Assembly (NCBI GenBank): GCA_028290285.1
Contig: JAQGKD010000096.1
Coordinates: 186,001-250,000 of the forward strand
DNA length: 64,000 nucleotides
From: Hyphomicrobiales bacterium
GTDB lineage: Bacteria > Pseudomonadota > Alphaproteobacteria > Rhizobiales > Beijerinckiaceae
Direction of reading: 5' to 3'
The notes beneath the pieces are model-generated. The model did not search any database. It was not told where the DNA came from and saw nothing but the letters and a program-made list of their open reading frames with translations. The translations under genes and the position numbers were made by a program. Position 1 is the first letter of the stretch, and each line of letters opens with the position of its first letter. Shown in pieces: positions 25,995 to 64,000 of the stretch.

Positions 25995-26115
25995 GCAATC
26001 ATCCGTGTCGTGCGCCCGAATTCGGGCCTGCTCGATGCGTATTGCCCGGTGACGTTTTGTGCAAGCGCGCTGCGCGCCCGTCGGCTAGGGTATGGCCCCC
26101 ACACATGGAACCCCC

Positions 26116-48433: not shown

Positions 48434-48958
48434 ATGACACCACGCAAGCCCAGCGCGGCGGCGATTGCAAAGGCGCGCGCACTCTATGACGACGGCCTGA
48501 CGCCGCTGCATGAGATCGCCGCAACCTTGAAACTCAGCCGTCACGCCTTCCTGACATTGCGGCGCAAGCTCGACTGGCCGACGAGGCCCGCGCCCCCCAC
48601 GGCGACGAAACCCGCATCGAAGCCGCGCCTTCCTGACGAAGGCGGCCTGGACGAACCCATAGACACCGGCGCCCTGAAGCGGCGGCTCGCCCATGCCCTC
48701 AGGCGCGAAATCGCGCGGGTCGAGAGCGAGCTGGAAAACGTCGCGCCGCCCGGGGCCGAGCGCAAGGCGCGCATCCTCGCTTCGCTGGTCAAGACGCTCG
48801 CCGATCTCAGGCGGCTCGACGACACCATGAAACAGGCCAGCCAGGGAGGCGCGCAGGATGACGGACGCGACGACGGACCTCCCCGCGACCTGGCCACATT
48901 GCGGCAGGCGCTTGTCGAGCGTCTTGAAGACCTGCGCGGACAACGGGACGCTGGATGA
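48434..48958 (+). CDS. GTA g1, small-terminase-like protein
   Basis: A 174-residue protein. The N-terminus is a helix-turn-helix-like DNA-binding region ('ARALYDDGLTPLHEIAATLKLSRHAFLTLRRKLDW'). The C-terminus is helical with a likely coiled coil ('KRRLAHALRREIARVESELENV', 'LRQALVERLEDLRGQRD'). This is the pattern of the GTA g1 / TerS protein that partners the packaging ATPase. It overlaps the terminase gene by 101 bases, unusually long but supported by the terminase's own ribosome site. Confidence 0.85.
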   Translation: MTPRKPSAAAIAKARALYDDGLTPLHEIAATLKLSRHAFLTLRRKLDWPTRPAPPTATKPASKPRLPDEGGLDEPIDTGALKRRLAHALRREIARVESELENVAPPGAERKARILASLVKTLADLRRLDDTMKQASQGGAQDDGRDDGPPRDLATLRQALVERLEDLRGQRDAG

Positions 48959-50243
48959 ACTCCTCGCCGGATTTTCGGCGCGCGATCTGGAGACGCTGCT
49001 GGCCGCCTGGGAGATGCAGGCGCGGGAAGATCAATTGCCGCCGCCGCAAGCCAGCGGGGGCGGCCCCTGGACGGTCTGGCTCGTCATGGGCGGGCGTGGC
49101 GCGGGCAAGACGCGCACAGGCGCCGAATGGGTGCGCGGCGTGGCGCTCGGCCTGCCGGGTTTTTCACACCGGCCCGTCGGCCGCATCGCGCTCGTCGGTG
49201 AAACGGCGGCCGATGTGCGCGACGTCATGATCGAGGGCGTGTCTGGCCTGCTCGCCATTCATTCACGCGACGAACGCCCCTTGTGGGAGCCCTCGCGGCG
49301 GCGTCTCGCCTGGCCCAATGGCGCGACCGCGCAGACATTCTCCGCCGAGGATCCCGAATCCCTGCGCGGTCCACAATTTGAATGCGCCTGGCTCGACGAA
49401 CTCGCCAAATGGCGGCACGCGGAGGAGACATTCGACATGCTGCAATTCGGTCTTCGCCTCGGCCAGCATCCACGACAGGTCGTGACCACGACCCCGCGAC
49501 CCGCGCCTCTGCTGAAGCGGCTTCTCGCGGATCCGAAAGCGGCGGTGTCGCGTGCTGCGACGCAGGCCAATGCACAGAATCTCGCAGCCGATTTTCTGCA
49601 GCGCATCGTCACACGCTACGCCGGCACGCGGCTCGGACGCCAGGAACTCGATGGAGAAATGGTGGAAGAGCGGGCCGACGCGCTGTGGACACGCGACATG
49701 CTGGAAGCGTGCCGGCGGCCCGCAGCCCCGCCCATGCGCCGCATCGTGGTGGCCATCGACCCGCCTGCTTCGTCGCATCAGCGGGCCGATGCCTGTGGCA
49801 TTGTCGCGGCGGGCATCGATGCCGACGGTCACGTGCATATTCTCGAAGACGCGTCGCTCGGCGCGGCGCGGCCGGCCAAATGGGCACGTGTCGCAGTGGC
49901 GCTTTATGCAAAGCACGAGGCCGACGAACTCGTCGCCGAAGTCAACCAGGGCGGCGAGATGGTCGCAGCCGTCATCAATGAAGCCGATGCGAAAGTCCCT
50001 GTGCGGCAGGTGCGCGCGACACGCGGCAAATATCTGCGGGCAGCGCCCGTGGCGCAGCTCTACGAGCAGGGCAGGGTACATCACATCGGCGCTTTCCCTG
50101 CGCTCGAGGACGAAATGTGCGCCTTCGGCCCGACGGGACTCGACAATGGCCGCAGCCCCGATCGTCTCGATGCGCTGGTCTGGGCGGTCACCGCGCTCGC
50201 ACTCGGACCACATGCTGGCGAGCCGAAGGTCCGCCGCGTCTAG
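48858..50243 (+). CDS. GTA g2, large terminase subunit
   Basis: DNA-packaging motor and nuclease, 461 residues. The ATPase domain has Walker A 'MGGRGAGKTRTGAEW' (about residue 76) and Walker B 'CAWLDELAKW'. The RNase H-like nuclease domain begins with 'IVVAIDPPAS' and ends with 'RSPDRLDALVWAVTAL'. The ATG at 48858 has an upstream GGGAGG ribosome site within g1. In GTAs this enzyme packs host DNA by headful. Confidence 0.95.
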   Translation: MTDATTDLPATWPHCGRRLSSVLKTCADNGTLDELLAGFSARDLETLLAAWEMQAREDQLPPPQASGGGPWTVWLVMGGRGAGKTRTGAEWVRGVALGLPGFSHRPVGRIALVGETAADVRDVMIEGVSGLLAIHSRDERPLWEPSRRRLAWPNGATAQTFSAEDPESLRGPQFECAWLDELAKWRHAEETFDMLQFGLRLGQHPRQVVTTTPRPAPLLKRLLADPKAAVSRAATQANAQNLAADFLQRIVTRYAGTRLGRQELDGEMVEERADALWTRDMLEACRRPAAPPMRRIVVAIDPPASSHQRADACGIVAAGIDADGHVHILEDASLGAARPAKWARVAVALYAKHEADELVAEVNQGGEMVAAVINEADAKVPVRQVRATRGKYLRAAPVAQLYEQGRVHHIGAFPALEDEMCAFGPTGLDNGRSPDRLDALVWAVTALALGPHAGEPKVRRV

Positions 50244-50287
50244 GCACTTTTACCAAATCATCGCCTCGAACTGAGAAGAGGAACGTC

Positions 50288-52120
50288 ATGCCCTCCATCC
50301 TTTCCCGCCTCGCGGGACGGGCCGGATTTGCGCGCGCGAATCCGCCCACGCCCATGCTCGCCGCCAAATCCTCGCGCACGGCGGCGCTGTTCGGCTTCAA
50401 CCTGCCGGGACTGACGCGCTTCCAGCCCCGCACCTCGCCCGAACTGACGCGCCACGGCTATGAGCGCAACCCCGTCGTGTTCCGCTCGGTGCGGATGATC
50501 GCCGAGGCCGTCGCATCTGTGCCCTGGCTCGTCTACGAGCAAGGCATGGAAACGCCGGACCATCCGCTGCTCGCGGTCCTGGCCAATCCGAATGCAGGGC
50601 AATCGGGAACGGCCCTTCTGGAAGCGCTGGTCTCGAACCTGCTGTTGTTCGGAAATGCCTATGTCGAGGCCGTGTCCATCGACGGAACCCTGCGCGAGCT
50701 GCATGCTTTGCGGCCCGATCGCATGTCGATCGTGCCCGGTTCGAACGGCTGGCCGGCGGCTTTCGAATATCGCGCGGGCGCCGAAAAAGTGCGCTTCGAT
50801 GCCGGTGCGGGCGTGAGCCCGATCCTGCATCTGAAATTCTTCGCGCCGCTCGATGATTATTACGGCCACGCACCGCTGGCCGCCGCTGAAACCGCGCTCG
50901 ATATTCACAACTCGGCGAGTTGCTGGAACCGCGCCTTGCTCGACAACGCCGCGCGTCCCTCCGGCGCGCTGGTCTATTCCGGCCCCGAAGGCGCGACGCT
51001 TTCAGAAGAACAATTCGACCGGCTGAAAAACGAACTAGACGAGAGTTTTTCAGGCGCACGCAATGCGGGACGGCCGCTGCTGCTCGAAGGCGGTCTCGAC
51101 TGGAAGCCGCTGTCCCTGTCGCCCAAGGACATGGATTTCATCGAAGCCAAGGCTGCTGCCGCGCGTGAAATCGCACTGGCCTTCGGCGTCCCGCCCATGG
51201 TGCTCGGCCTGCCCGGCGACAACACGTTCTCAAACTACCAGGAAGCCAACCGCGCCTTCTGGCGGCAGACCATCGTGCCCTTCGTCAGCCGCCTCCAGAA
51301 GAGCTTTGAAAGCTGGATGCAGGCCGATTTCGGCACATTCGAACTGCGCGCAAATCTCGACGGCGTCGATGCTCTGAGCTCGGAACGCGCGAGCGAATGG
51401 GCGCGCATCGGCGCCGCGAGCTTCCTCACGGACGACGAAAAGCGCGAGGCCGTGGGTTATGCGCCCCGTGGCGCGAAGGGGACGTTGCCCGATGGCAGCT
51501 TCGATGGTTCGCCTGTCGAGGCGGGCGTCGACGGCGGTGGTGCACTCGATCCGGGTGGTAACGGGGGTGCCTGGGAGAGTCAGCCGCGTGATGATATCGG
51601 GCGCTGGACGAGTGAGGGAGGTGGGGCTGGCGTGCCCCGGACGGAGGCAGATATTGGCAAGCCTACCATCCTTTTCAACGAGGACGGAGGTCCTTACAGG
51701 AACCCTTTTGCCGATAAGACAGATGGAGTCATTAGATATCCGGCTAATTTCCCCCCCGCCTTTTTCATTGAAAAAGGTGCTGCTAATTGGAACGCTCCGG
51801 GGAACTCAATGCTGGGTCTGATTGCTGCTGATCTTTCGAAATTTCGCCAAGGTGGTGAATGGGATATTCAGCGTCTAACGGGTACATCAGGCGAACCGCG
51901 CTATGTCGATTACTCAACAGTCGCCATTGGAGTCTACGCTGCGTCAGCCGGGGTGCCTCAAGACCTTACCTTGTACGCACAAGATGCCTATGCAAAGCGG
52001 TATTCGCGCTTTGCACCCGGTACAGAATTCAGTACCGTGTACGAGAATTTGCCGCTGCGCAACGAATTGAATACAAAAATTGGCTATGACCTCTTCAGAA
52101 CCATCCAGGCCCGAAGGTAG
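50288..52120 (+). CDS. GTA g3, HK97-type portal protein with a toxin-like C-terminal extension
   Basis: A 610-residue protein; ordinary GTA/HK97 portals are about 390-400. Residues 1-400 are a normal portal ('HGYERNPVVFRSVRMIAEAVASVPW', 'LLFGNAYVEA', 'FGVPPMVLGLPGDNTFSNY'). Then comes a Gly-rich linker with 'QPRDDIGRWTSEGGG' (residue 432 on), a linker type often found ahead of toxin domains in phage head proteins. The last ~170 residues, encoded by visibly AT-richer DNA, include 'GGEWDIQRLTG', 'YSTVAIGVYAASAGVP' and 'YENLPLRNELNTKIGYDLF'. This recalls the C-terminal domains of polymorphic toxins (possibly type 44-like), from memory only. Start ATG at 50288. The next gene overlaps its end. Confidence 0.9.
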   Translation: MPSILSRLAGRAGFARANPPTPMLAAKSSRTAALFGFNLPGLTRFQPRTSPELTRHGYERNPVVFRSVRMIAEAVASVPWLVYEQGMETPDHPLLAVLANPNAGQSGTALLEALVSNLLLFGNAYVEAVSIDGTLRELHALRPDRMSIVPGSNGWPAAFEYRAGAEKVRFDAGAGVSPILHLKFFAPLDDYYGHAPLAAAETALDIHNSASCWNRALLDNAARPSGALVYSGPEGATLSEEQFDRLKNELDESFSGARNAGRPLLLEGGLDWKPLSLSPKDMDFIEAKAAAAREIALAFGVPPMVLGLPGDNTFSNYQEANRAFWRQTIVPFVSRLQKSFESWMQADFGTFELRANLDGVDALSSERASEWARIGAASFLTDDEKREAVGYAPRGAKGTLPDGSFDGSPVEAGVDGGGALDPGGNGGAWESQPRDDIGRWTSEGGGAGVPRTEADIGKPTILFNEDGGPYRNPFADKTDGVIRYPANFPPAFFIEKGAANWNAPGNSMLGLIAADLSKFRQGGEWDIQRLTGTSGEPRYVDYSTVAIGVYAASAGVPQDLTLYAQDAYAKRYSRFAPGTEFSTVYENLPLRNELNTKIGYDLFRTIQARR

Positions 52121-52583
52121 CCCATGGGGCTGCTGGTTCGCCCTCGTGCTGATGCTCGCGGCTTTCGTTTGGCTGGTGGTCTACGTGTCGGAACTGTTGC
52201 AGCCGACCGAGACTCGCTCTGTGACCGATACGGTTCTCTCGCCGTCGGGCAGGCTTAAGGCGGAAGTCCTCGATGTCTGGTGGTCGGGTATGCTTTTGAC
52301 GGTTGTCACCAGCGAGGTGCGGATCTCGAAGGTCGATCATCCCGAGGTTGGCGGCCTGGCTCTCGGTTACAGCGGTTCGCGCGATCTGCCGGAGTGGCTG
52401 GACGACCACACCTTGCTTATACCGCTGCCAAATCATGCTGCTGTGGGGGAGCGTGCTCTGAAAGTCTTAGGGGTAGACGTGCGTCTTCAATTCAAGCCGG
52501 ACATTCCATTGACGCGCCGACTGAAATTGGAACGGCAGAACGTGCCGAAGGAGATGTGGTGGCGATTCGATGTTCCTCCGTAG
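52086..52583 (+). CDS. Single-pass membrane protein after the portal extension, candidate immunity protein
   Basis: A 165-residue protein from the ATG at 52086, overlapping the portal gene by 35 bases; a TTG at 52080 is an alternative. One membrane helix ('WFALVLMLAAFVWLVVYVSEL', about residues 16-36) is followed by a soluble domain ('SVTDTVLSPSGRLKAEVLDVWW', 'LPEWLDDHTLLIPLPN'). It belongs to no GTA gene family. Position directly after a toxin-like C-terminus suggests an immunity function; that is inference. Confidence 0.65.
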   Translation: MTSSEPSRPEGSPWGCWFALVLMLAAFVWLVVYVSELLQPTETRSVTDTVLSPSGRLKAEVLDVWWSGMLLTVVTSEVRISKVDHPEVGGLALGYSGSRDLPEWLDDHTLLIPLPNHAAVGERALKVLGVDVRLQFKPDIPLTRRLKLERQNVPKEMWWRFDVPP

Positions 52584-52586
52584 CGC

Positions 52587-53408
52587 ATGCCGACCAGCGT
52601 CGTGGCCGATGTTCAGGACCTGAATTTCATGGATGGTTTTCAACGGTTTTTCACATTCGCTGCCATGCTGGAGCGCAAGGACATTGCGTTCCGGATCGAT
52701 CGGCACGCACCCGATGGCCTCACGGTTACGTTCATCTTCCAAGGCTCCTGTATCGAGGCCTCCTTCGAGCAGGAGCTGATGAACTTTTCGTATTTCTCGA
52801 TCCGGAGCGGACCGCATTCCGGCGAGGCCGCCCTTTCCCGACTCATCTCCGAACAGAGCGATAATTCGCTTCCGGTTGCCGTTGAGCGCGCGACAGGGGT
52901 ACTGGATCGCTGCCTCGGTTGCCTCGCAATGCTCAAGGCGGACAACATCACATACCGGATCGACCAGTTCGCGCCGGACTGCCTGACCGTTTTCTTCACG
53001 CTCGTCGCACTGCGGGTGGAGGTGAGCGTCTTTCAAGATCGGCTGGAGTTCGTCACCTACGCTGGACCGGAGGACGTGTATCGCGAAGCCGATCTACTGA
53101 AATTCTTCCCCGACCTCGCAGACGAGCCGTGCCCGAATGTTCCGAAGATCAAACAAATCCAGGGCAGACGCTGGATGCTCGAGCCCAGCGCGATCTCTCA
53201 GGACACGGCTTCCGAAATTCTGACGCTCCTCACGCGCCACGCCGCGGAAATGAACAAACTCATCATAGAGTTCCAGCAAACGCTCGGCCGTGACGAGTTC
53301 AACGAGGCGCGGAGATGCCTTGGGACCGTCATGGGTGAATCCTACCTTCAGGCCATGTATCCGCTCTTCGAACTCTATCCCGAGCTGAAGCCGGAAGGCC
53401 TGCGCTAA
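52587..53408 (+). CDS. Internally duplicated protein, candidate immunity protein
   Basis: A 273-residue cytoplasmic protein starting three bases after the previous stop. Two copies of a ~60-residue domain are plain: 'MLERKDIAFRIDRHAPDGLTV' near residue 30 and 'MLKADNITYRIDQFAPDCLTV' near residue 117, each followed by a similar strand pattern ('IEASFEQELMNF', 'VEVSVFQDRLEF'). A third, helical domain ends 'GTVMGESYLQAMYPLFELYPELKPEG'. Small proteins with this type of strand pattern occur beside polymorphic toxins as immunity-like genes. Not a GTA core gene. Function unknown. Confidence 0.7.
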   Translation: MPTSVVADVQDLNFMDGFQRFFTFAAMLERKDIAFRIDRHAPDGLTVTFIFQGSCIEASFEQELMNFSYFSIRSGPHSGEAALSRLISEQSDNSLPVAVERATGVLDRCLGCLAMLKADNITYRIDQFAPDCLTVFFTLVALRVEVSVFQDRLEFVTYAGPEDVYREADLLKFFPDLADEPCPNVPKIKQIQGRRWMLEPSAISQDTASEILTLLTRHAAEMNKLIIEFQQTLGRDEFNEARRCLGTVMGESYLQAMYPLFELYPELKPEGLR

Positions 53409-53527
53409 CCCGCACACCCGCATCCATTCATCCGCGCAAGGACGCGTGACACCCGTGCTGCCGCAAGGCAGCGGCGGTCGCGCGCGTGCGCGTGGATGAC
53501 CACTCGGCCCCATGACATGGAGACGCC

Positions 53528-53716
53528 ATGACGGACATCACGCAAAGCATCATTTCGCGGGGAGATCTTGCGCATCTGACGCTTTTCCTTTGGGCGAGCG
53601 GCGCGTCGAGCCTGCTCGTTTTCGCGCTGCGCGAGACCGCCGCGGCCAACCGCCGCTTCGACGAATTTGTTCGCGAGCTCGCCCGCTTCAACCGCCGCTT
53701 CGGAGATGACAAATGA
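53528..53716 (+). CDS. GTA small membrane protein (g3.5 position)
   Basis: A 62-residue protein with one helix ('DLAHLTLFLWASGASSLLVFALRE') and a basic amphipathic tail ('RRFDEFVRELARFNRRF'). It sits where RcGTA has g3.5, between portal and protease. Its stop overlaps the next small gene by four bases (ATGA). Similar small proteins are found in other Rhizobiales GTA clusters; role unknown. Confidence 0.7.
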   Translation: MTDITQSIISRGDLAHLTLFLWASGASSLLVFALRETAAANRRFDEFVRELARFNRRFGDDK

Positions 53717-53880
53717 ACCTTTTATCGAAGCCCGCACAGCTGCGCCGCGCAACTGGCCCAGCACCCAATCCGCGCCGCGTGTTCAAGCGCTTCGTGCGTG
53801 TGCTGGAACGGCTCGCACCGTCCGAGCCCCTGCGCGGCAGCGCGCCTTTCTCCGCCGCTATCCCCAGGGAGAAGCCCTGA
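53713..53880 (+). CDS. Small basic GTA-cluster protein (55 residues, absent from ORF track)
   Basis: An ATG at 53713 opens a 55-codon frame ending at 53880: N-terminus 'MNLLSKPAQLRR', middle 'RVFKRFVRVLERLAP', end 'PREKP'. It overlaps the preceding stop (ATGA) and the prohead-protease start (TGATG), so all three genes are translationally coupled. The amphipathic basic helix is its only visible feature. Family not recognised. Confidence 0.6.
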   Translation: MNLLSKPAQLRRATGPAPNPRRVFKRFVRVLERLAPSEPLRGSAPFSAAIPREKP

Positions 53881-54467
53881 TGCTCACAAAGAAGATCATG
53901 AGCGCGGACGAATATGCGTGCGGCCCGAACCTGACCAAGCGCGCCCCGCCGATGGCGGTCGCGGGCGACGGCATGTTCGAGGGGTATGCGAGCCTGTTCG
54001 GCATCGTCGATCTCGGTGGCGACGAAGTGATGCCGGGCGCCTTCCGCACCTCGCTTGCACGACGCGATGCAAAGCACGTCCGCATGCTGTGGCAGCACGA
54101 TCCCGCGAGTCCTATCGGGAAATGGCTGTCTATGACCGAGGATGCGCGTGGGCTCAAGGTCAAGGGCCAGCTGAACCTGGCGGTGGCCCGCGCACGCGAG
54201 GCGCTCGCGCTGATGCGCGATGGCGCGGTGGATGGATTGTCCATCGGCTTCCGCGTCAAGCGCGCAAGCAAGTCGCGAGGCGGCAGCACGCGCAAGCTGA
54301 TGGAACTCGATCTTTGGGAAGTGTCCATCGTGACCTTCCCGATGCTGCCGCAGGCGCGTGTCTCGGCGGTAAAGCGCGAGCGCGCTCCGCAGCGCGTCGC
54401 AAACCTGCAACCGCCTGTCGGCGATGTCGCGACGCTGATGCGTCGGGCCGCCGCTTTGATGAAGTGA
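53880..54467 (+). CDS. GTA g4, HK97-family prohead protease
   Basis: A 195-residue capsid maturation serine protease (family U35/S78) from the ATG at 53880; the track ORF starts in earlier genes. The catalytic His is in 'MLWQHDPASPIGKW' and the Ser in 'VDGLSIGFRVKRA'. 'FEGYASLFGIVDLGGDEVMPGAF' is the usual N-terminal motif. It would cleave the capsid scaffold segment encoded next. Five bases before the capsid gene lies a GAAGAAAGGA-type ribosome site. Confidence 0.93.
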   Translation: MLTKKIMSADEYACGPNLTKRAPPMAVAGDGMFEGYASLFGIVDLGGDEVMPGAFRTSLARRDAKHVRMLWQHDPASPIGKWLSMTEDARGLKVKGQLNLAVARAREALALMRDGAVDGLSIGFRVKRASKSRGGSTRKLMELDLWEVSIVTFPMLPQARVSAVKRERAPQRVANLQPPVGDVATLMRRAAALMK

Positions 54468-54484
54468 AGAAAGGATCGATACGC

Positions 54485-55738
54485 ATGACGCAGACATTTT
54501 CGCCGAGCCTCGAAGTCAAGTCCTCCGCCGAGGACGCAGTGGCGGCCTTCAACGAGTTTCACCGCACGTTCGGTGCGTTCCGTGAAACGAACGACGAGCG
54601 CATTGCACAGCTCGAGCAGCGCTACTCGTCCGACGTCGTGACGGAGGAGAAGCTCGCCCGCATCGACACCGCGCTCGACGACACCCGCCGCCGCATGGAC
54701 CGCATGCTCGTTGAAAAAGCCCGTCCGCCGCTGCATGGCGCCGAGCGAAACGATGCGCCCCACAGCCGCGAACACAAGGCCGCCTTCCGCGCCTATATGC
54801 AAACAGGCGAGGCTGCCGGACTGAAGACGATCGAAGGAAAGGCAATGTCGGCGGGCTCAGGCCCTGACGGCGGCTACCTCGTTCCCGCACCGGCCGAGCG
54901 CGAAATTCTGGATCGGCTGGCCAATATCTCCCCGATCCGCAGCATCTCCTCGGTGCGCGCCATTTCCACGGCGAGCTTCAAGAAAGCGTTCTCGACGAGC
55001 GGCCCCGCAGCCGGCTGGGTCGCTGAAGCCGATCCGCGCCCGCAGAGCGCCAACCAGCAGCTTGCAGATCTCACCTTCCCGGCCATGGAGCTCTACGCCA
55101 TGCCGGCGGCGACGCAGACATTGCTCGACGACGGCGTGGTCGATGTCGAACAATGGATCGCCAGCGAGATCGACACCGTCTTCGCCGAACAGGAAGGCGC
55201 CGCCTTCGTCAACGGCAACGGCACCAGCAAGCCGATGGGCTTCCTGGCCTACCCGAAGTCCACTGTCGCGAGCTGGGCCTGGGGCAAGACGGCCTATCTT
55301 CCCACGGGCGTTGCCGGAGCGTTTGCCGCTGCAAATCCGTCGGATCTTCTCGTCGATCTCATCTATTCGCTGCGGGCAGGCTATCGCCAGAATGCGCGCT
55401 TCGTGATGAACCGCAAGACACAGGCGCAGATCCGTAAGTTCAAAGCTTCGACCGGAGAATATCTGTGGCAGCCGCCCGCCAGCCTCGGCGGCAGCGCGAC
55501 GCTGATGAACTTCCCCATCGTCGAAGCCGAGGACATGCCCGACATCGCAACGGACAGCTTCTCGGTCGCATTCGGCGACTTCCAGCGTGGCTATCTGATC
55601 GTCGATCGCATTGGCATCCGCATCCTGCGCGACCCCTATTCCGCCAAGCCCTACGTGCTCTTCTACACCACCAAGCGCGTGGGCGGCGGCATTCAGGATT
55701 TCGACGCGATCAAGCTGCTGAAGTTCGGCACGACCTAA
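54485..55738 (+). CDS. GTA g5, HK97-fold major capsid protein
   Basis: A 417-residue capsid protein from the ATG at 54485. The first ~115 residues are a charged coiled-coil scaffold ('ERIAQLEQRYSSDVV', 'DDTRRRMDRM') that the protease removes. The HK97 fold follows: 'GSGPDGGYLVPAP', 'WVAEADPRPQS', 'FVNGNGTSKPMGFL', 'FVMNRKTQAQIRKF'. The end 'FYTTKRVGGGIQDFDAIKLLKFGTT' is typical of GTA capsids. It lies tail-to-tail with the protease gene, the stops touching. Confidence 0.97.
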   Translation: MTQTFSPSLEVKSSAEDAVAAFNEFHRTFGAFRETNDERIAQLEQRYSSDVVTEEKLARIDTALDDTRRRMDRMLVEKARPPLHGAERNDAPHSREHKAAFRAYMQTGEAAGLKTIEGKAMSAGSGPDGGYLVPAPAEREILDRLANISPIRSISSVRAISTASFKKAFSTSGPAAGWVAEADPRPQSANQQLADLTFPAMELYAMPAATQTLLDDGVVDVEQWIASEIDTVFAEQEGAAFVNGNGTSKPMGFLAYPKSTVASWAWGKTAYLPTGVAGAFAAANPSDLLVDLIYSLRAGYRQNARFVMNRKTQAQIRKFKASTGEYLWQPPASLGGSATLMNFPIVEAEDMPDIATDSFSVAFGDFQRGYLIVDRIGIRILRDPYSAKPYVLFYTTKRVGGGIQDFDAIKLLKFGTT

Positions 55739-56488
55739 TCAACGCGCGGCCCAGCTGCGCAGGACGCTCTCGAACCAGCTGCGTTGCGGCGCGAGCAGAG
55801 CGGCCTGCGTGACGTCCCCGCACGCCTTCTTGCCCTCGCCAGTTGACCAGACGGTGACAGCCACCAGGGTCTCGCCGTCTGGCGTGAATACAGGCCCGCC
55901 GGAATCTCCGGTGCATGCGCCGAGCCCACGTCCATCAGCGTCTTTTGCCCAGAGCAGGATGCTGGAGAGCGGCGCGCGCGCCGCGAGCAATCCGCTGCGC
56001 AAGGTGCCGCCTGTGCGCCCGTCCTTCTCACGCGTGAGCCCGAAACCCGCGATGCGATAGCGGGCGCCCACTCGCACGTCCGGTGTCCAGTCGATCGTGA
56101 CCGGGCGCAACCGCGCGGGCAGGGGCGTCGCTGTGCGCAGAAGTGCGAGATCGATCGAACGCTCGCGCGTGCGCGGTGCATCGGGTCTGAACTCCGGATG
56201 CACGGCGCTCTGCGCAACCTGGATGAAACCGCTTTCGCCTTCGCCCGGCAGATGGATGCGCAGATCTCCTGCGGGTCCCGCGCAATGGGCGGCGGTGAGG
56301 ACGGCATCTTTCGCCACGACAATGCCGGTGCAGAAGCCCGCGCCGCGCGCATCGCGCTTGAGCACCATCACGACATAGGGCGCGAGCGCGCGATCCTCCA
56401 CCGCCGGTCCAACGAGCGCCGTGGCGGATGTCGCCATTCCCATGAGTACAAGCGGGACCAGTGCGCCTGCTCCGGATCTTTTCGACAT
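55739..56488 (-). CDS. Secreted trypsin-like serine protease (S1 family) antisense within the GTA cluster
   Basis: A 249-residue protease with an N-terminal signal peptide ('ALVPLVLMGMATSATALVGP'). The full triad is present: His in 'VLTAAHCAGP', Asp in 'RSIDLALLRT', Ser in 'CTGDSGGPVF', and the four or so cysteines fit S1 disulfides. It faces the opposite way to every GTA gene, with its stop adjacent to the capsid stop and 51 bases between its start and g6. It could be a later insertion or a protease that acts on released particles or the cell surface. No canonical GTA protein corresponds. Confidence 0.9.
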   Translation of the reverse strand: MSKRSGAGALVPLVLMGMATSATALVGPAVEDRALAPYVVMVLKRDARGAGFCTGIVVAKDAVLTAAHCAGPAGDLRIHLPGEGESGFIQVAQSAVHPEFRPDAPRTRERSIDLALLRTATPLPARLRPVTIDWTPDVRVGARYRIAGFGLTREKDGRTGGTLRSGLLAARAPLSSILLWAKDADGRGLGACTGDSGGPVFTPDGETLVAVTVWSTGEGKKACGDVTQAALLAPQRSWFESVLRSWAAR

Positions 56489-56539
56489 GCAGTCTCCTCA
56501 GCGAGTTCTGCTTCCTACCCCAGAACCGATGGAGTTCCA

Positions 56540-57112
56540 ATGACGCCGATCCTCATGACCGGCCCCGTTGCCGAGCCGCTCTCGCTCGACGAGGCGCGGG
56601 CGTGGTTGCGTCTCGACACGCATGCCGAGGATGATCTCGTGACGTCCCTCGTGCGTGCTGCACGCAGCGCCATCGAGCAGGCGACGCGTCGCGCGCTGAT
56701 GGCGCAGAGCTGGCGCCTGCGCCTTGACCGCTGGCCGCCAAACGGCATCGTGAATGTTCCACTTGCGCCTGTATTCGCGATCGAGGCCGTGCGCGTTTTC
56801 GATGCCGCAGGCGTTGCGATCCCGCTCGCCCTCGGTGGCTTCCGTCTCGACCAATCTTTCGGAACGCGCATTTTCTGCGACACGCCGCCGCCGGCGCCCG
56901 GGCGTCTCTATGGTGGAATCGAGATCGATCTCACTGCTGGATATGGTGCCAGCGCCGCAGCGGTCCCGGAGCCGCTGCGCCAGGCCATGCGCCTGCTGGT
57001 GGCCTTCTGGTTCGAACATCGCGGCGATGCGTTGCACGACAATGCCGTGCCGCACCTTCCGGCCGCTGTCGCGGCGCTCGTGGTGCCGTTCCGCTCGGCG
57101 AGGCTCGGGTGA
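56540..57112 (+). CDS. GTA g6, head-tail connector/adaptor
   Basis: A 190-residue protein of the phage gp6-like connector family, starting at the ATG at 56540 with a GGAG ribosome site; the track ORF reads into the protease gene. 'PLSLDEARAWLRLDTHAEDDLV' and 'IEQATRRALMAQSWRLRLDRWP' are typical. The helical C-terminus ('EPLRQAMRLLVAFWFEHRGDA') follows. The stop overlaps g7 as GTGA. It would bind below the portal. Confidence 0.92.
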   Translation: MTPILMTGPVAEPLSLDEARAWLRLDTHAEDDLVTSLVRAARSAIEQATRRALMAQSWRLRLDRWPPNGIVNVPLAPVFAIEAVRVFDAAGVAIPLALGGFRLDQSFGTRIFCDTPPPAPGRLYGGIEIDLTAGYGASAAAVPEPLRQAMRLLVAFWFEHRGDALHDNAVPHLPAAVAALVVPFRSARLG

Positions 57113-57435
57113 GCGCGGGGTCCGTCGGACGCCTTCGCCAGAGGCTTGTTGCCGAAGAGCCCGTGGATGCAGACGACGAGGCGGGTGGCGCCACACGCAC
57201 ATTCGCCGCGCGATTCGAGGTGTGGGCCGAGATCGACACGCAAAGAACGCAGCCGGATTTCATGGCCGCGCGTGAAGAAACCGTTGTCACGCACCGCATT
57301 CGCCTGCGTGCCGGGAACGCGGTGGCGGCAGGATGGCGCCTGCGCAAGGGGACGCGGGTCTTCGACGTCGTCAGCTGCGCTCCCGACGATGTGTCGGGCG
57401 GCTTCTGCTCGTATCGTTGTCGGGAGATCGTGTAA
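57109..57435 (+). CDS. GTA g7, head-tail stopper/adaptor
   Basis: A 108-residue beta-rich protein with a GTG start. 'GRLRQRLVAEEPVDADDEAGGATRTF' and 'VWAEIDTQR' with 'THRIRLRAGNAVAAGWRLRKG' match the phage head-tail adaptor (SPP1 gp16-like) family. It overlaps g6 (GTGA) and g8 (TAATG). Confidence 0.88.
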   Translation: MSAGSVGRLRQRLVAEEPVDADDEAGGATRTFAARFEVWAEIDTQRTQPDFMAAREETVVTHRIRLRAGNAVAAGWRLRKGTRVFDVVSCAPDDVSGGFCSYRCREIV

Positions 57436-57845
57436 TGGGCGCCATCGCGAGTTTCGCCTTGCGCAAGGCCGTGCGCGCTGTCCTCGCATCCGACACAGCG
57501 CTCGTCGATGCGCTCGGGGCAGCGAAAATCTTCGATGAAGTGCCGCGCGGAATGAGCGCGCCCTTCATCACCTTCGGCGACACGCAATGGCGCGATTGGT
57601 CCACGGCGACGGACCGGGGCGCGGACCAGGTCTTCACCCTCGACATCTGGACCGATCATCGCGGCGTACGCCAGGCACTGGAGCTGGCGGAGCGCGTAGC
57701 AGCATTGCTGGACAGTGCTCAGCTCACGCTCGATGGACACCGCCTCATAGACCTGCGCCTCAACGCGCTCGACTCGCGCCGCGATGCGAATGGCCGCCTA
57801 GCCAGGGCGAGCCTGCGCTTTCGTGCGCTCACTGAAACAATCTGA
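57435..57845 (+). CDS. GTA g8, tail terminator (DUF3168)
   Basis: A 136-residue protein from the ATG at 57435 ('MGAIASFALRKAVRAVL'). DUF3168 features are 'VFDEV'-like 'IFDEVPRGMSAPFITFGD', 'FTLDIWTDHRGVRQALELAERV' and 'LNALDSRRDANGRLARASLRFRAL'. It would cap the tail tube. The track start at 57333 overlaps g7 out of frame. Confidence 0.9.
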   Translation: MGAIASFALRKAVRAVLASDTALVDALGAAKIFDEVPRGMSAPFITFGDTQWRDWSTATDRGADQVFTLDIWTDHRGVRQALELAERVAALLDSAQLTLDGHRLIDLRLNALDSRRDANGRLARASLRFRALTETI

Positions 57846-57858
57846 CGGAGTGTAATTT

Positions 57859-58269
57859 ATGGCAGCGCAAAAGGGCAGGGACCTTCTTCTCAAGATCGAC
57901 GACGGCACAGGCGCCTTCGTGACGATCGCAGGCTTGCGGACACAACGGCTCGCACTGAATGCGGACACAGTGGATGTCACCCATGCCGAGAGCCCGGGCC
58001 GCTGGCGCGAATTGCTCGCGGGCGCAGGACCGCGCCGCGCGAGCCTCGCGGGCACGGGCGTGTTCAAGGATGCGGCTTCCGACATTCTGATGCGGCAGGT
58101 TTTCTTCGACGGACTTATTCGCAACTGGCAAATCCTCGTGCCGGCTTTCGGCATCATCCAGGGCCTGTTTCAGATTTCCAGCCTCGACTGGCGGGGCGAT
58201 CACGCAGCCGAAGTGACCTTCGAGATTGCCTTGGAATCCGCAGGTGCTCTCACCTTCACCGCTCTTTGA
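57859..58269 (+). CDS. GTA g9, major tail tube protein (TP901-1 type)
   Basis: A 136-residue tail tube protein: 'KGRDLLLKIDDGTGAFVTIAGLRTQRLALN', 'VDVTHAESPGRWRELLAGAGPR' and 'AEVTFEIALESAGALTFTAL' are the standard GTA tail protein pattern. Only 13 bases separate it from g8. Confidence 0.93.
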   Translation: MAAQKGRDLLLKIDDGTGAFVTIAGLRTQRLALNADTVDVTHAESPGRWRELLAGAGPRRASLAGTGVFKDAASDILMRQVFFDGLIRNWQILVPAFGIIQGLFQISSLDWRGDHAAEVTFEIALESAGALTFTAL

Positions 58270-58279
58270 GGAGGCACGC

Positions 58280-58639
58280 ATGGCCAACCGTAGACGTGGC
58301 GAGATCGAAGCGGAATTGGGCGGCAGGCGGTGGACGCTGTGCCTGACGCTGGGTGCCCTGGCTGAACTGGAATCCACCTTCGGAAGCGACGACCTGCCCG
58401 ATCTCGCGCGGCGCTTCGAGAGTGGCCGCATTCGCGCGCAGGATCTCCTCGCAATCATCGGCTGCGGATTGCGCGGCGGCGGCAATGCGATCAGCGACGC
58501 TGAGGTGGCGCTGCTGCCCTCGTCCGAAGGATTGCCCGGTTATGTGCACATCGTCGCGGAACTTCTCGCCGCCACCTTTGGCACTGTTGCGCAACCAAGC
58601 GGTGGCGCTGCTTTCCCTCAGCAGCCGCAGGAGGCCTGA
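58280..58639 (+). CDS. GTA g10, tail assembly chaperone-like protein
   Basis: A 119-residue protein from the ATG at 58280 (GGAGG ribosome site). 'RGEIEAELGGRRWTLCLTLGALAELESTFG' and 'IRAQDLLAIIGCGLRGGG' are typical of GTA gp10. It is followed at once by g10.1, whose natural start is uncertain. Confidence 0.88.
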   Translation: MANRRRGEIEAELGGRRWTLCLTLGALAELESTFGSDDLPDLARRFESGRIRAQDLLAIIGCGLRGGGNAISDAEVALLPSSEGLPGYVHIVAELLAATFGTVAQPSGGAAFPQQPQEA

Positions 58640-58701
58640 AGCCGAACCACGCGCATGTCGGAGAAAGCGCGCAGGTCGCGCCCTTTCCCTGGGATGAAGC
58701 G

Positions 58702-58872
58702 ATGAGTTTCGGTCTCGGCCTTCTGCGGCATGCACCCAAGGAATTCTGGGCTATGACACCGCGCGAATTACACGCTGCCATGGCAGCATTTAACCACACG
58801 ACGCCTCGCGAGTTCGAGCGCGCCAATCTCACGACCCTGATGAAGGCCTTTCCCGACGAGGTGATGACATGA
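58702..58872 (+). CDS. GTA g10.1 (rcc01693-like) tail assembly chaperone, start uncertain
   Basis: A 56-residue frame from the ATG at 58702 ('MSFGLGLLRHAPKEFW'), absent from the ORF track. The frame stays open upstream through 'VAPFPWDEA', a stretch that family members normally contain, back to a CTG at 58636 overlapping the g10 stop. The true start is therefore probably upstream and non-ATG, or g10.1 is reached by reinitiation or frameshifting from g10. The stop overlaps g11 (ATGA). Confidence 0.75.
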   Translation: MSFGLGLLRHAPKEFWAMTPRELHAAMAAFNHTTPREFERANLTTLMKAFPDEVMT

Positions 58873-59438
58873 CGGTATCCGATCAACTCACATCGCCCTT
58901 CGCCGCAGGCGATCTCGCACAGGTGGGGTCCGCGCTCGACGGCCTGAACATATCTGCCGATCGTGTTGCGAAGTCGCTGACCGGCGCATTCGCCAGCGCG
59001 ATCACCAGCGGAAAATCCTTCGAGCAGACCGTACAAAATATTGGCCTCAGCCTATCAAAGATGGTGGTGAGTTCCGCCATGCAGCCGGTGACACAAGGGC
59101 TTTCATCAATGCTCTCGTCCGCCTTCAGTGGAATCACCGGAGGTGGGAGTACGACGGCGGTGCAGCCGTTTGCGGACGGCGGCATCGTTTCACGGCCGAC
59201 CTTTTTCGGATCGGGTGGCGGGCTAGGCCTGATGGGCGAGCGCGGCGCCGAAGCCATTGTGCCACTGTCGCGCGGCCCCGACGGAAGGCTCGGGCTGGCG
59301 GCGAGTGGAAACCAATCGCGCGCCGCTCAGGTGACAGTGCAGATCACCACGCCTGATGCTGAGAGCTTCCGCAACTCGCAGGTGCAGATTTCCGGCGCTC
59401 TGGCGCGCGCGGTTGCTCGCGGCCAGCGCGGATTATGA
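58869..59438 (+). CDS. GTA g11, tail tape measure protein
   Basis: A 189-residue protein, short as in other GTAs. 'KSFEQTVQNIGLSLSKMVVSSAMQPVTQGLSSML' is the helical core, and 'FADGGIVSRPTFFG', 'GLMGERGAEAIVPLSR' is a conserved tape-measure ending. It sets tail length. Confidence 0.93.
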   Translation: MTVSDQLTSPFAAGDLAQVGSALDGLNISADRVAKSLTGAFASAITSGKSFEQTVQNIGLSLSKMVVSSAMQPVTQGLSSMLSSAFSGITGGGSTTAVQPFADGGIVSRPTFFGSGGGLGLMGERGAEAIVPLSRGPDGRLGLAASGNQSRAAQVTVQITTPDAESFRNSQVQISGALARAVARGQRGL

Positions 59439-59450
59439 GGAGAGCAACGC

Positions 59451-60092
59451 ATGCCTTCATTTCACGAGGTCCGCTTTCCCCTTGATATCTCCATGCACGG
59501 ACGCGGCGGCCCTGAACGGCGCACGGATATTGTCGTGACGGGATCAGGCCGCGAACAACGCAATGCGCGCTGGTCCGATTCACGCCGCCGCTACGATGCC
59601 GGCTACGGCGTGAAGTCACTTGCGGCGATTGGGGCGGTCGTCGCCTTCTTCGAAGAGCGGCGTGGCAAGCTCTATGGTTTCCGCTGGCGCGATCGTGCCG
59701 ACTACAAATCCTGCGCAGCCGATTGCAATCCAGCGCCGACCGACCAGTTTCTTGGGGTCGGGAATGGCGTGAATACGCGCTTTCCACTGCGCAAGTCCTA
59801 CGGCATGCACTTTGCGCCCTATACGCGCGACATCGTGAAGCCGGTGAACGGAAGTCTGCGCATGGCCGTCAATGGCGTCGAGCATCTCGCCGGTCGCGAC
59901 TTCGATCTCGATGAGACGACTGGCATCGTTACATTTCGGGCGGGGCATGTGCCGACTCCAGGCGCGAGTGTCACAGCAGGCTTCCTGTTCGACGTGCCGG
60001 TCCGATTCGATACCGATTATCTCGAAATTGATCTCGCAGCCTTCGATGCCGGCGACATTCCAAAGATACCATTGATCGAAATTCGTCCATGA
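59451..60092 (+). CDS. GTA g12, distal tail protein (DUF2460)
   Basis: A 213-residue protein with the DUF2460 layout: 'FHEVRFPLDISMHGRGGPERRTDIV', 'SRRRYDAGYGVKSLAAIGAVVAFFEERRGKLYGFRWRD', and a C-terminal 'TGIVTFRAGHVPTPGASVTAGFLFDVPVRFD'. It forms the ring at the tail end. Confidence 0.94.
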   Translation: MPSFHEVRFPLDISMHGRGGPERRTDIVVTGSGREQRNARWSDSRRRYDAGYGVKSLAAIGAVVAFFEERRGKLYGFRWRDRADYKSCAADCNPAPTDQFLGVGNGVNTRFPLRKSYGMHFAPYTRDIVKPVNGSLRMAVNGVEHLAGRDFDLDETTGIVTFRAGHVPTPGASVTAGFLFDVPVRFDTDYLEIDLAAFDAGDIPKIPLIEIRP

Positions 60093-60104
60093 GCGGAGGC
60101 GCAC

Positions 60105-60995
60105 ATGCGCAAAACAACACCCGAACTGCAAGCGCGCCTCGACGCAGACGCCACGACTTTCTGTCATTGCTGGAAGCTCGTTCGCCGTGACGGAGTGAAG
60201 CTAGGCTTCACGGATCACGACAGGGATCTCGCATTCGGCGATACGACCTATACGGCCCGAGCGGGTCTCGATGCAGCCAGCGCGGAGAGTTCGCTCGGCT
60301 TCGCGATTGGCGGAACCGAGGTGTCTGGCGCCTTGTCGACGGACACGTTGCTGGAAGCCGATCTCGTCAGCGGGCGTTACGACGCAGCGAGCTTCGAGAC
60401 GTGGCTTGTAGACTGGACCGACCCAGCGCAGCGCATGCTGCTCGACATATCGACAATCGGCGAGGTCAAGCGTTCGGAATACGCGTTTACTGCTGAACTG
60501 CGAAGCCTCGCACACAAGCTGGACCAGGTGCGCGGACGCCGCTATCAGCAAGCCTGTTGCGCCGACCTGGGCGACGCGCAATGTGCCGTACGTCTCGATG
60601 TCGCTGCCTTTCAGGCGCATGCGACCGTGATCGCGTCGGGTGGCCCTTCAGAATGCGTCGCGCAGCTCGCTACCTATGATGCGGGTTGGTTCACCGGTGG
60701 CCGCGTGGAGTTCACGACGGGTGACAATGCCGGGGCGCTGGTCAGCATCAAGTCGCATCGTGTTTCAGACGCCGGAGATGTGCTGATCTTCTGGACGCCA
60801 CTCGCTGCCGCGATACGGCCGGGCGATAACTTCACTGTCACGGCCGGTTGCGACAAGAGCTTTGCGACATGCGGATTGAAATTCAGCAACGTCCCGAACT
60901 TCCGGGGCTTCCCGCATATTCCCGGCAACGATGTCTTGATGAGCTATCCGGGACAGAGCGATCCTCTCATGGATGGCGGGAGTCTGTTTCGATGA
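60105..60995 (+). CDS. GTA g13, tail hub protein (DUF2163)
   Basis: A 296-residue hub protein. DUF2163 hallmarks are 'CHCWKLVRRDGVKLGFTDHDRDL' at the start and 'NFRGFPHIPGNDVL' at the end. Cysteines in 'QQACCADLGDAQC' and 'AGCDKSFATCGLKF' match the positions of the Fe-S-ligating cysteines of RcGTA gp13. It overlaps g14 by ATGA. Confidence 0.94.
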   Translation: MRKTTPELQARLDADATTFCHCWKLVRRDGVKLGFTDHDRDLAFGDTTYTARAGLDAASAESSLGFAIGGTEVSGALSTDTLLEADLVSGRYDAASFETWLVDWTDPAQRMLLDISTIGEVKRSEYAFTAELRSLAHKLDQVRGRRYQQACCADLGDAQCAVRLDVAAFQAHATVIASGGPSECVAQLATYDAGWFTGGRVEFTTGDNAGALVSIKSHRVSDAGDVLIFWTPLAAAIRPGDNFTVTAGCDKSFATCGLKFSNVPNFRGFPHIPGNDVLMSYPGQSDPLMDGGSLFR

Positions 60996-61426
60996 GTGAT
61001 CTCACGCGAGAAGTGGTGGTCGATGCTGCGCGTCGCTGGATCGGCACGCCCTACCATCACCAGGCATCGCTTGTCGGCATTGGTTGCGACTGCCTCGGCC
61101 TGGTGCGTGGCGTGTGGCGGGATGTGATCGGCGCGGAGCCGGAACTTGCGCCCCCTTATACGCCTGACTGGGCAGAAGCGAGCCGCGAGGAACGGTTGAT
61201 CGATGCGGGGCTACGTTGGTTTGCGCCGGTGGATGCGGGTGCATTCGCAGCCGGCGATGTCCTGGTGTTTCGCTGGCGTGACGGATTGCCCGCCAAACAT
61301 CTCGGCATTGCTACATCTCAGAGCACGATGATTCACGCACACGACGGGGCTTGTATCTGCGAAGTCGCAATTTGCCCCGCATGGCGCCGCCGCATTGCCT
61401 GCGCTTTTGCCTTTCCGGGTCTCTGA
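60992..61426 (+). CDS. GTA g14, NlpC/P60-type tail peptidase
   Basis: A 144-residue cysteine peptidase from the ATG at 60992; the track ORF begins in g13. The catalytic Cys is in 'GIGCDCLGLVRG' and the His in 'LPAKHLGIATS'. It would open peptidoglycan during particle entry. Confidence 0.93.
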   Translation: MSDLTREVVVDAARRWIGTPYHHQASLVGIGCDCLGLVRGVWRDVIGAEPELAPPYTPDWAEASREERLIDAGLRWFAPVDAGAFAAGDVLVFRWRDGLPAKHLGIATSQSTMIHAHDGACICEVAICPAWRRRIACAFAFPGL

Positions 61427-61453: not shown

Positions 61454-63889
61454 ATGGCAACGCTCGTTCTTCAAGCTGTCGGCTCAGCCGTCGGCAATGC
61501 GCTTGGTGGGCCGATAGGCGGGATCATCGGGCGTGCCGCTGGCGCACTCGCTGGAAGCGCCATCGATCAAAGGCTCTTCGGCGGCGCGCGTCATGTTGAA
61601 GGCCCGCGCCTGACGACGCTCGCGGGACTCGCTGCAACCGAGGGCTCGCCTGTGCCTCGCGTTTACGGTCGCGCGCGCATTGGCGGCCAGATGATCTGGG
61701 CGACACGGTTCAACGAGACTTTGGATACGACACGCGGTGGCGCGAGCGGGGGCAAGAGTTCCGGGAACGCATCCACGACCTATCGCTACGCAGCCAATTT
61801 CGCGGTTGGGCTTTGTGAGGGCAGGATCGCTTTCGTCCGTCGCATCTGGGCCGATGGAAAGGAACTGGACCTCGGCAACTTCACATTCCGCGTCTATCGC
61901 GGCACGCAGGACCAGCATGCCGATCCGCTGATAGTCGCCAAGGAAGGTTTAGACCAAGCGCCGGCGTATCGGGGCCTGGCATACATTGTTTTCGAGAACA
62001 TGCCGCTTGCTGATTTCGGCAACCGCATCCCGCAGCTGAGCTTCGAGGTTGTTCGTCCCGTGGACGGCCTTGCAACCATGGTCCGAGCTGTCGATCTCAT
62101 CCCCGGTTCTTCTGAATATGCCTACTCCGTGCGGCCGCTCGTGCAAAATGCGTCCGGCGTCACCAATAGTGAAAATCGGCATCAGCTCTTCGCGACGAGT
62201 GATTGGACCGGGTCTTTGGATGCGCTCCAGGCACTTTGTCCGAACCTGAAGAGCGTCGCACTGGTTGTCTCCTGGTTCGGCGACGATCTTCGTGCAGGCC
62301 AATGCACATTGGCGCCGCGTGTCGAAGGCCGCGCCAAGACGATCTCAGGTGCAAGCTGGGGCGTCGCCGGTCTGTCGCGTGCCACGGCCCGCACGATCTC
62401 GCTAATCGATAGCCGTCCTGCATATGGGGGGACGCCATCGGACGAGGTTGTCGCCGGCGCGATACAGGACCTGCGCGCGCGCGGCCTTTCGGTGCTGTTT
62501 TATCCTTTCGTGATGATGGACATTGCTAAAGGAAATTCGCTGGTCGATCCCGTCAGTGGACAGGCGGGACAGAAGCCCTATGCGTGGCGCGGCGATGTCA
62601 CCTGCGCAGCGGCTGACGGCACCAACGCTGTTGCCGGCGAACTGGCGACGTTCTTCGGCTCGACCTCGCCTCTATCGAGCGAATGGTCGTTTCGCCGGTT
62701 CATCCTGCACTATGCACATCTTTGTGTGGCGGCGGGAGGCGTCGATGCTTTTCTTGTCGGTTCGGAAATGCGTGGCATTACATGCCGGCGTGATGAGACG
62801 AGCGCTTTTCCGGCAGCACTCGCACTGGCCCGTCTCGCATCGGACGCCAAAGCGATACTGGGTACGAATACGAAGATTTCATACGCCGCGGACTGGACGG
62901 AATATGGTGCCTGCGTGAATAGCAGCGGCGCGGATGTCCGTTTTCCGCTTGATGCGATCTGGTCCTCGCCCTCGGTCGACTTCATTGGCATCGATGCATA
63001 TTTTCCGCTTTCCGACTGGCGCAAGGACGCCGTTCATCTCGACCAGCAGGAATCGGAATCGATTTACGATCTCGCTTTTCTGACGCGACGGGTCGGTGCG
63101 GGCGAAGGGTTCGACTGGTATTACGCCAGCGAACAGGCGCGCCAGGCCCAGCAGCGCACGCCAATCACAGACGGCGCTTATGGCAAGCCCTGGGTCTTCC
63201 GGCAAAAGGATCTCGTGAGCTGGTGGTCGCAGCTACATTTCGAGCGAGTGTCCGGTGTCGAGCGTTCAACGCCCACCGCGTGGTTGCCGTGTTCTAAGCC
63301 GATCTGGTTCGTGGAAGTGGGCTGCCCCGCGATTGATCTGGGCGCAAACGCACCAAACGTGTTTCCCGATGTGAAGGCGGATAAGGTCGAGCTTCCGCCC
63401 TTCTCGACCGGGGAGCCCGACGCTTTCATGCAGCAACGCGCGCTGCAGGCGATGATCGCGCGCTTCGATCCACGCTGCGAAAGCCATGAGTCGCAATGGA
63501 ATCCGGTCTCGCCTATCTTTGGCGGTCGCATGGTCGATCCCGATCGCATTTACGTCTGGGCTTACGATGCGCGGCCTTTTCCAGCCTTTCCGATGCTGGC
63601 GCAAACGTGGACGGATTCGGTCGCTTGGGACACCGGTCATTGGCTTAACGGGCGGCTCGAAGCGACGGCGCTCGACCGGCTCGTGCAGGCCATACTCGCG
63701 GATCTTCTGGACGAACCCTGGTCAGACCTGCCGCCGCTCGAAGGTATGGTAGAGGGTTTTGTCGTCGATCGACTTGTATCGCCGCGTGGGCGCTCGAGCC
63801 GCTCGCTTCATATTTTGGTTTCGATGCGATCATATCGTCTGGAGATGTTCGATTCGTCGATCGTCGTGGGGGCGCGATCACGCGCGTGA
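61454..63889 (+). CDS. GTA g15, baseplate 'megatron' protein, frameshifted and cut by the window
   Basis: The first 811 codons of the large multidomain tail-tip protein. It opens with a glycine-zipper segment ('GSAVGNALGGPIGGIIGRAAGALAGSAID'), then baseplate hub domains ('VYGRARIGGQMIWATRFNE', 'ISFEVVRPVDG'-like), and the GTA TIM-barrel domain ('FVMMDIAKGN', 'FLVGSEMRGI', 'ISYAADWTEYG', 'WFVEVGCPAIDLGANAPNVF'). Family members are over 1,200 residues. The frame ends at 63889 with a tail ('SSIVVGARSRA') that is not family-like; a -1 shift near 63790 restores family sequence. Confidence 0.88.
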   Translation: MATLVLQAVGSAVGNALGGPIGGIIGRAAGALAGSAIDQRLFGGARHVEGPRLTTLAGLAATEGSPVPRVYGRARIGGQMIWATRFNETLDTTRGGASGGKSSGNASTTYRYAANFAVGLCEGRIAFVRRIWADGKELDLGNFTFRVYRGTQDQHADPLIVAKEGLDQAPAYRGLAYIVFENMPLADFGNRIPQLSFEVVRPVDGLATMVRAVDLIPGSSEYAYSVRPLVQNASGVTNSENRHQLFATSDWTGSLDALQALCPNLKSVALVVSWFGDDLRAGQCTLAPRVEGRAKTISGASWGVAGLSRATARTISLIDSRPAYGGTPSDEVVAGAIQDLRARGLSVLFYPFVMMDIAKGNSLVDPVSGQAGQKPYAWRGDVTCAAADGTNAVAGELATFFGSTSPLSSEWSFRRFILHYAHLCVAAGGVDAFLVGSEMRGITCRRDETSAFPAALALARLASDAKAILGTNTKISYAADWTEYGACVNSSGADVRFPLDAIWSSPSVDFIGIDAYFPLSDWRKDAVHLDQQESESIYDLAFLTRRVGAGEGFDWYYASEQARQAQQRTPITDGAYGKPWVFRQKDLVSWWSQLHFERVSGVERSTPTAWLPCSKPIWFVEVGCPAIDLGANAPNVFPDVKADKVELPPFSTGEPDAFMQQRALQAMIARFDPRCESHESQWNPVSPIFGGRMVDPDRIYVWAYDARPFPAFPMLAQTWTDSVAWDTGHWLNGRLEATALDRLVQAILADLLDEPWSDLPPLEGMVEGFVVDRLVSPRGRSSRSLHILVSMRSYRLEMFDSSIVVGARSRA

Positions 63890-64000
63890 CAAGCGACGAT
63901 GTCGTTCCGGCGAAGGATGGCACTCTTCTCCAGCTGACGCGTGCCGACGATACGGACCTGCCGCACGAACTGAGCCTCGCCTTCACCGATTCCGAATGGG
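63790..64000 (+). pseudogene. Continuation of g15 in the -1 frame
   Basis: Read from 63790 (GCG) this frame gives 'ALEPLASYFGFDAIISSGDVRFVDRRGGAITRVTSDDV' and stays open to the window's end ('LAFTDSEW'), the sequence expected after 'DRLVSPRG' in g15. The break is at CGTGGGCGCTCGAG; one more G (GGGG) would join both frames. It is either a real mutation or a sequencing/assembly error in a G run. Confidence 0.8.

Follow-up and report, generated by a model that had tools for sequence, protein, structure and literature searches.

The gene transfer agent cluster and its genome

The DNA analysed here (the window) is a stretch of 64,000 nucleotides, positions 186001-250000 of contig C97 in a MAG-like draft genome of 4.99 Mb and 145 contigs, with a completeness of 93.85% and a contamination of 7.08%. 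The nearest named records are uncultured Hyphomicrobiales/Beijerinckiaceae MAGs, the top one being RYN_480, with 70% identity in the g15 protein. The window holds a head-tail gene cluster whose order, TerL-portal-protease-capsid-connector-tail-TMP-g12-g13-g14-g15 on one strand, is that of RcGTA-type gene transfer agents (GTAs), and whose genes, identified from profile and homology matches, are as follows:

48858..61426, + strand: RcGTA-type head-tail cluster minus g15, every gene open
48858-50243, + strand: TerL
50117-52120, + strand: portal
53667-54467, + strand: protease
about 54311-55738, + strand: capsid
56198-57112, + strand: connector
57109-57435, + strand: head completion
57333-57845, + strand: tail completion
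57859-58269, + strand: major tail
58869-59438, + strand: tape measure
59451-60092, + strand: distal tail
60105-60995, + strand: hub
60848-61426, + strand: NlpC/P60

Judged by this gene content, the locus is an RcGTA-type GTA of an uncultured Beijerinckiaceae-like (Hyphomicrobiales) bacterium, complete apart from g15, of which the source genome has a single copy. The portal ORF is extended to 667 aa, with homology stopping near residue 458, and about 2.2 kb between portal and protease (window 51460-53840) are without counterpart in the GTA of the same-genus genome G031; neither Pfam nor PHROG gave a match to two ORFs in this interval, 52080-52583 and 52587-53408. Neither RNA families nor tRNAs were found in the 64-kb window.

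Two frames of one g15 gene

The features of g15 on which the analysis turns are these:

61454..63790, + strand: g15 frame 1, conserved N-terminal 779 residues, with iris/penetration, adhesin-like and peripheral/TIM-barrel domains and the first part of the central domain (NF048004, PF13547 and 6tba matches)
63788..63790, + strand: frame-break site, where only two bases occupy one family codon position (both frames aligned with 29 relatives, relatives' codons, tblastn)
63790..64000 and on to the equivalent of 65295, + strand: -1 frame, C-terminal g15, with the rest of the central domain and the fibre-binding domain (PF13550, PF23666, NF048004 and 6tba matches)
63791..63889, + strand: out-of-frame tail of frame 1, 32 residues and TGA, without family resemblance

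By these matches the broken gene is g15 ("megatron", NF048004; Rcc01698 in RcGTA), as a first-pass annotation of the sequence had assigned it. In place of the uninterrupted frame of about 1260-1340 codons that characterizes NF048004, there are 811 codons (61454-63889) closed by a TGA, with the remainder in the -1 frame. In profile searches residues 1-779 of frame 1 correspond to positions 1-799 of the 1299 in NF048004 with 1168.6 bits, frame 1 alone exceeding the 800-bit cut-off for membership; it includes the PF13547 GTA_TIM domain, aligns to residues 1-779 of relatives (70% identity to the nearest), and matches residues 1-795 of the RcGTA megatron structure 6tba. Nothing in the megatron family resembles the last 32 residues of frame 1 (RSSRSLHILV...). 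The -1 frame, which is open between 63649 and the window equivalent of 65295 (L002:2649-4295), carries PF13550 (Phage-tail_3) and PF23666 (Rcc01698_C), covers NF048004 positions 786-1298 of 1299 and matches 6tba residues 808-1302. The contig extends 22 kb past the window, and there the rest of g15, which the first-pass annotation had proposed to check, is intact down to its normal stop about 1.3 kb beyond the window edge.

The junction is narrow. The conserved ...GFVVDRLVSPR is retained in frame 1 as far as an invariant R (CGT, 63785-63787), and from 63790, ALEPLASYFGFDA, the -1 frame carries family sequence, with the conserved ALEPL starting at GCG 63790. Since in relatives a single residue (A, G, E, Q or D) separates the invariant R from ALEPL and only two bases are present here, one base is missing within the codon at 63788-63790; tblastn with the intact G031 protein likewise puts the break at C97:249790/249793, or window 63790/63793. 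On this alignment evidence the two halves together make up one continuous conserved protein, joined at a single codon. The early end of frame 1 at 63889, the family-like -1 frame from 63790 to the window edge and the place of the -1 break, all read from the sequence in the first-pass annotation, thus agree with homology. That annotation had also held that one more G is needed; the gene is indeed one base short, but because the residue at this column varies in relatives, with GAG and GCC codons as common as GGN, the lost base need not have been a G, nor the event slippage in a G run. The run at the break, three G's only, is a weak homopolymer.

Relaxed constraint was not visible on either side of the break in a comparison of conserved columns with relatives. 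Upstream of the break, departures from these columns amount to 0.108, compared with 0.112 in the nearest intact relative; downstream the figures are 0.084 and 0.124. The gene has neither the excess substitutions nor the second lesion that would mark a pseudogene. Such absence of decay is expected if the lesion is very recent; unrelaxed constraint implies that it is either very young or not real. By this measure g15 would have been under normal selection until very recently, or would be so still.

g15 in related genomes

Among 121 related genomes, g15 was found in 89. The GTA is patchy within the genus, with g15 absent even from near-complete genomes such as G022 and G024. Across the 185 relatives' loci that span the break point (some genomes being counted twice across collections), g15 is open and uninterrupted in 175, and none is broken at the same place. 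Each of the remaining 10 has a single lesion elsewhere: in six a Trp or Phe codon has become a nonsense codon, and in four the frame is broken. When the 80 named genome loci were divided by their record titles, broken copies occurred in 3 of 41 isolates (Microvirga subterranea, M. soli and Microvirga sp. 3-52) and 2 of 39 MAGs; since isolates are affected as often as MAGs, broken g15 copies are not mainly a MAG artefact. In relatives, g15 thus undergoes occasional natural inactivation. The six relatives with nonsense codons (L011, L064, L071, L092, L219 and L230), five of them at conserved Trp codons, comprise isolates and MAGs and have one lesion each. No second assembly of the source species turned up when viral contigs were searched by exact 31-mers and by protein.

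A different kind of variation is seen in same-genus GTA clusters (L039, L040, L047 and G031), where the connector is directly followed by g12 and the genes for head/tail completion, major tail and tape measure are missing (in G031 at C1, about 446705-447371). Matches to the major tail and tape-measure proteins are absent from the whole genomes G031, G043, G038 and G019, in which g15 is present and open. These clusters are either decayed or a short-tailed form of the GTA.

Origin of the frame break

The account that we consider probable is a recent, lineage-private deletion of one base in codon ~779 of g15, in a GTA otherwise complete; that the deletion is present in the organism's DNA is what we infer from the evidence above and below. 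In RcGTA the megatron comprises iris/penetration (residues 1-46), adhesin-like (47-229), peripheral (230-744), central (745-984) and fibre-binding (985-1304) domains; the central one links baseplate and distal tail, and the last one holds the fibres (PMC7296036). Translation past the deletion would run into 32 wrong residues and stop at 63889, and the truncated product would retain the iris/penetration, adhesin-like and peripheral domains and lack most of the central domain, with its distal-tail attachment, and all of the fibre-binding domain. The first-pass annotation had foreseen loss of the C-terminal part of the tail tip; the predicted loss is of that kind but larger. By analogy with RcGTA, such a product should give no working baseplate, and infective particles should not form.

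The most serious competitor, which we regard as possible though doubtful, is a consensus or assembly error in the draft genome, the organism's g15 being intact. In favour of an error are the draft status (145 contigs, 93.9% complete, 7.1% contamination), constraint that is unrelaxed before as well as after the break, the openness of every other GTA gene, and the essential rpoC in a relative MAG (G009:C286:4127-7152), split into two frames in mid-contig, itself likely an assembly error. Against an error, comparable g15 lesions occur in isolate genomes, and the site has just three G's and no long homopolymer, homopolymer lengths in C97 falling off smoothly. The contig itself also speaks against one. 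Because a Markov/Viterbi frame scan confused overlapping gene neighbours with true frame breaks, it was dropped in favour of homology with the same-genus genome G031, proteins from 800 kb of which were searched against 614 kb of the source genome. The 186 best segments cover 192 kb of C97, and g15 is the only clean continuation in another frame; most other candidates in this comparison were antisense shadow frames or neighbouring genes. With one clean break in the approximately 190 kb of C97 checked by homology, the assembly is not generally indel-ridden, and frame breaks are rare, about as frequent as ordinary pseudogenes or a low error rate would make them.

The rpoC yardstick, a control that covers relatives only, showed no internal stop in the same relatives among the matches listed; with the G009 split, it shows that draft genomes of this sort do have breaks of the g15 type now and then, in roughly 1% of cases per 4 kb gene. 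The source draft genome, though rated 94% complete, gave no rpoC match. Elsewhere in the source genome, a second apparent frame break lies at about 25.84 kb of contig C4 (about 25480-26500, L172), in a TctC-like tricarboxylate-transporter binding protein with many paralogues; C4 has 59.7% GC and C97 64.9%. Weighed against natural g15 lesions in about 5% of relatives, a true deletion is in our judgement about twice as probable as an error. The two options of the first-pass annotation, a true lesion and a base-calling error, therefore still lead, with a recent lesion favoured.

Its third option, programmed slippage, had been set beside a remark that no classic slippery heptamer is present. That remark is mistaken, GGGTTTT lying in frame at 63754-63760, and three features bear on recoding or restart:

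63740..63744, + strand: GAAGG, resembling a Shine-Dalgarno sequence, 9 nt before the heptamer
63754..63760, + strand: canonical -1 slippery heptamer G_GGT_TTT, in frame, where the -1 frame is open, 30 nt upstream of the break
63886..63889, + strand: GTGA, the frame-1 stop TGA overlapping the first ATG/GTG/TTG of the -1 frame, a possible reinitiation point

If the deletion is real, a -1 slip of ribosomes at the heptamer might yield some full-length protein, with the -1 reading CRRSTCIAAW in place of about ten residues, VVDRLVSPRG. The heptamer is the only X_XXY_YYZ in the frame-1 ORF (61454-63889), it falls within the sole 47 codons where a -1 slip bypasses the stop, and its kind is rare, 24 per 64,005 homology-supported codons in the contig giving 0.018 expected in the 47 usable codons; the GAAGG upstream, the intact constraint on the C-terminal part and the precedent of compensatory frameshifting around indels (PMC5009743) point the same way. 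Against such rescue, the heptamer is likelier than the genome-wide rate suggests, because it encodes the conserved E/D-G-Y/F, and the GAAGG may be coincidental, a part of conserved E-G dipeptide codons. Frame-1 homology does not switch at the slip site but runs about nine codons past it to 63787, retaining the conserved VVDRLVSPR, so that this stretch has been selected in frame 1. The heptamer occurs at the same place in 1 of 137 relatives only, where the gene is intact (L056), and so is not conserved, nor is the frame change, none of the 185 relatives' loci being broken at this place; the RNA 3' of it holds no unusual structure (z +0.57 and +1.50), and G_GG.U_UU.U falls outside the most efficient motif class in E. 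coli (PMC4066793). The retained frame-1 residues, near-absence in relatives and lack of downstream structure thus tell against programmed slippage. Rescue at this heptamer is improbable, even as an accidental, low-level event, which is how it would be possible; still less probable is a fixed deletion with the gene in continued use through the chance heptamer, which would cap the supply of complete tail tips and hence the dose of gene-transfer particles. Transcriptional slippage was also considered and rejected, no run longer than 4 bases being present between 63640 and the break.

The last alternative, two coupled genes with frame 1 ending at GTGA and a separate C-terminal protein of about 469 residues restarting at GTG 63886, fits a first start codon of the -1 frame that overlaps the stop and a long, open, conserved C-terminal part, but is very unlikely, since a G preceding a TGA stop is frequent by chance, such a division would interrupt the central domain and exclude about 32 conserved residues from translation, and no relative is split at this place.

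Most likely, then, the locus reflects ordinary inactivation or a draft error, and neither a new control mechanism nor a new kind of system is indicated. Taken alone, the finding amounts to a draft genome with an ordinary broken gene. Should the lesion be real, the locus would be a snapshot of a GTA losing its function, in a cluster otherwise complete and with the marks of recent selection. Together with the approximately 5% of relatives that bear scattered single g15 lesions, such a lesion suggests repeated knock-outs of the tail tip, with short-lived losers, as would fit GTAs kept by selection rather than passive remnants.

Comparison with known systems

Programmed -1 frameshifting combines an X_XXY_YYZ heptamer with stimulators; the locus resembles it in the canonical form and upstream, in-frame position of its heptamer and in the Shine-Dalgarno-like stretch, and differs in that the site is unconserved, without structure and followed by conserved frame-1 residues. 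With g15/Rcc01698 of RcGTA (PDB 6tba, 6teh; NF048004) it shares the domain order and the position following g12-g14, where the head-tail cluster ends, both frames jointly matching the entire length, whereas here a one-base split lies at the equivalent of RcGTA residue ~796-806, within the central domain (745-984). The g15 lesions of other Hyphomicrobiales (for example in Microvirga subterranea DSM 14364, Microvirga soli and a Rhodoblastus MAG) all lie at other positions than this break, but are like it in kind, each a single frame break or nonsense codon in a gene otherwise conserved.
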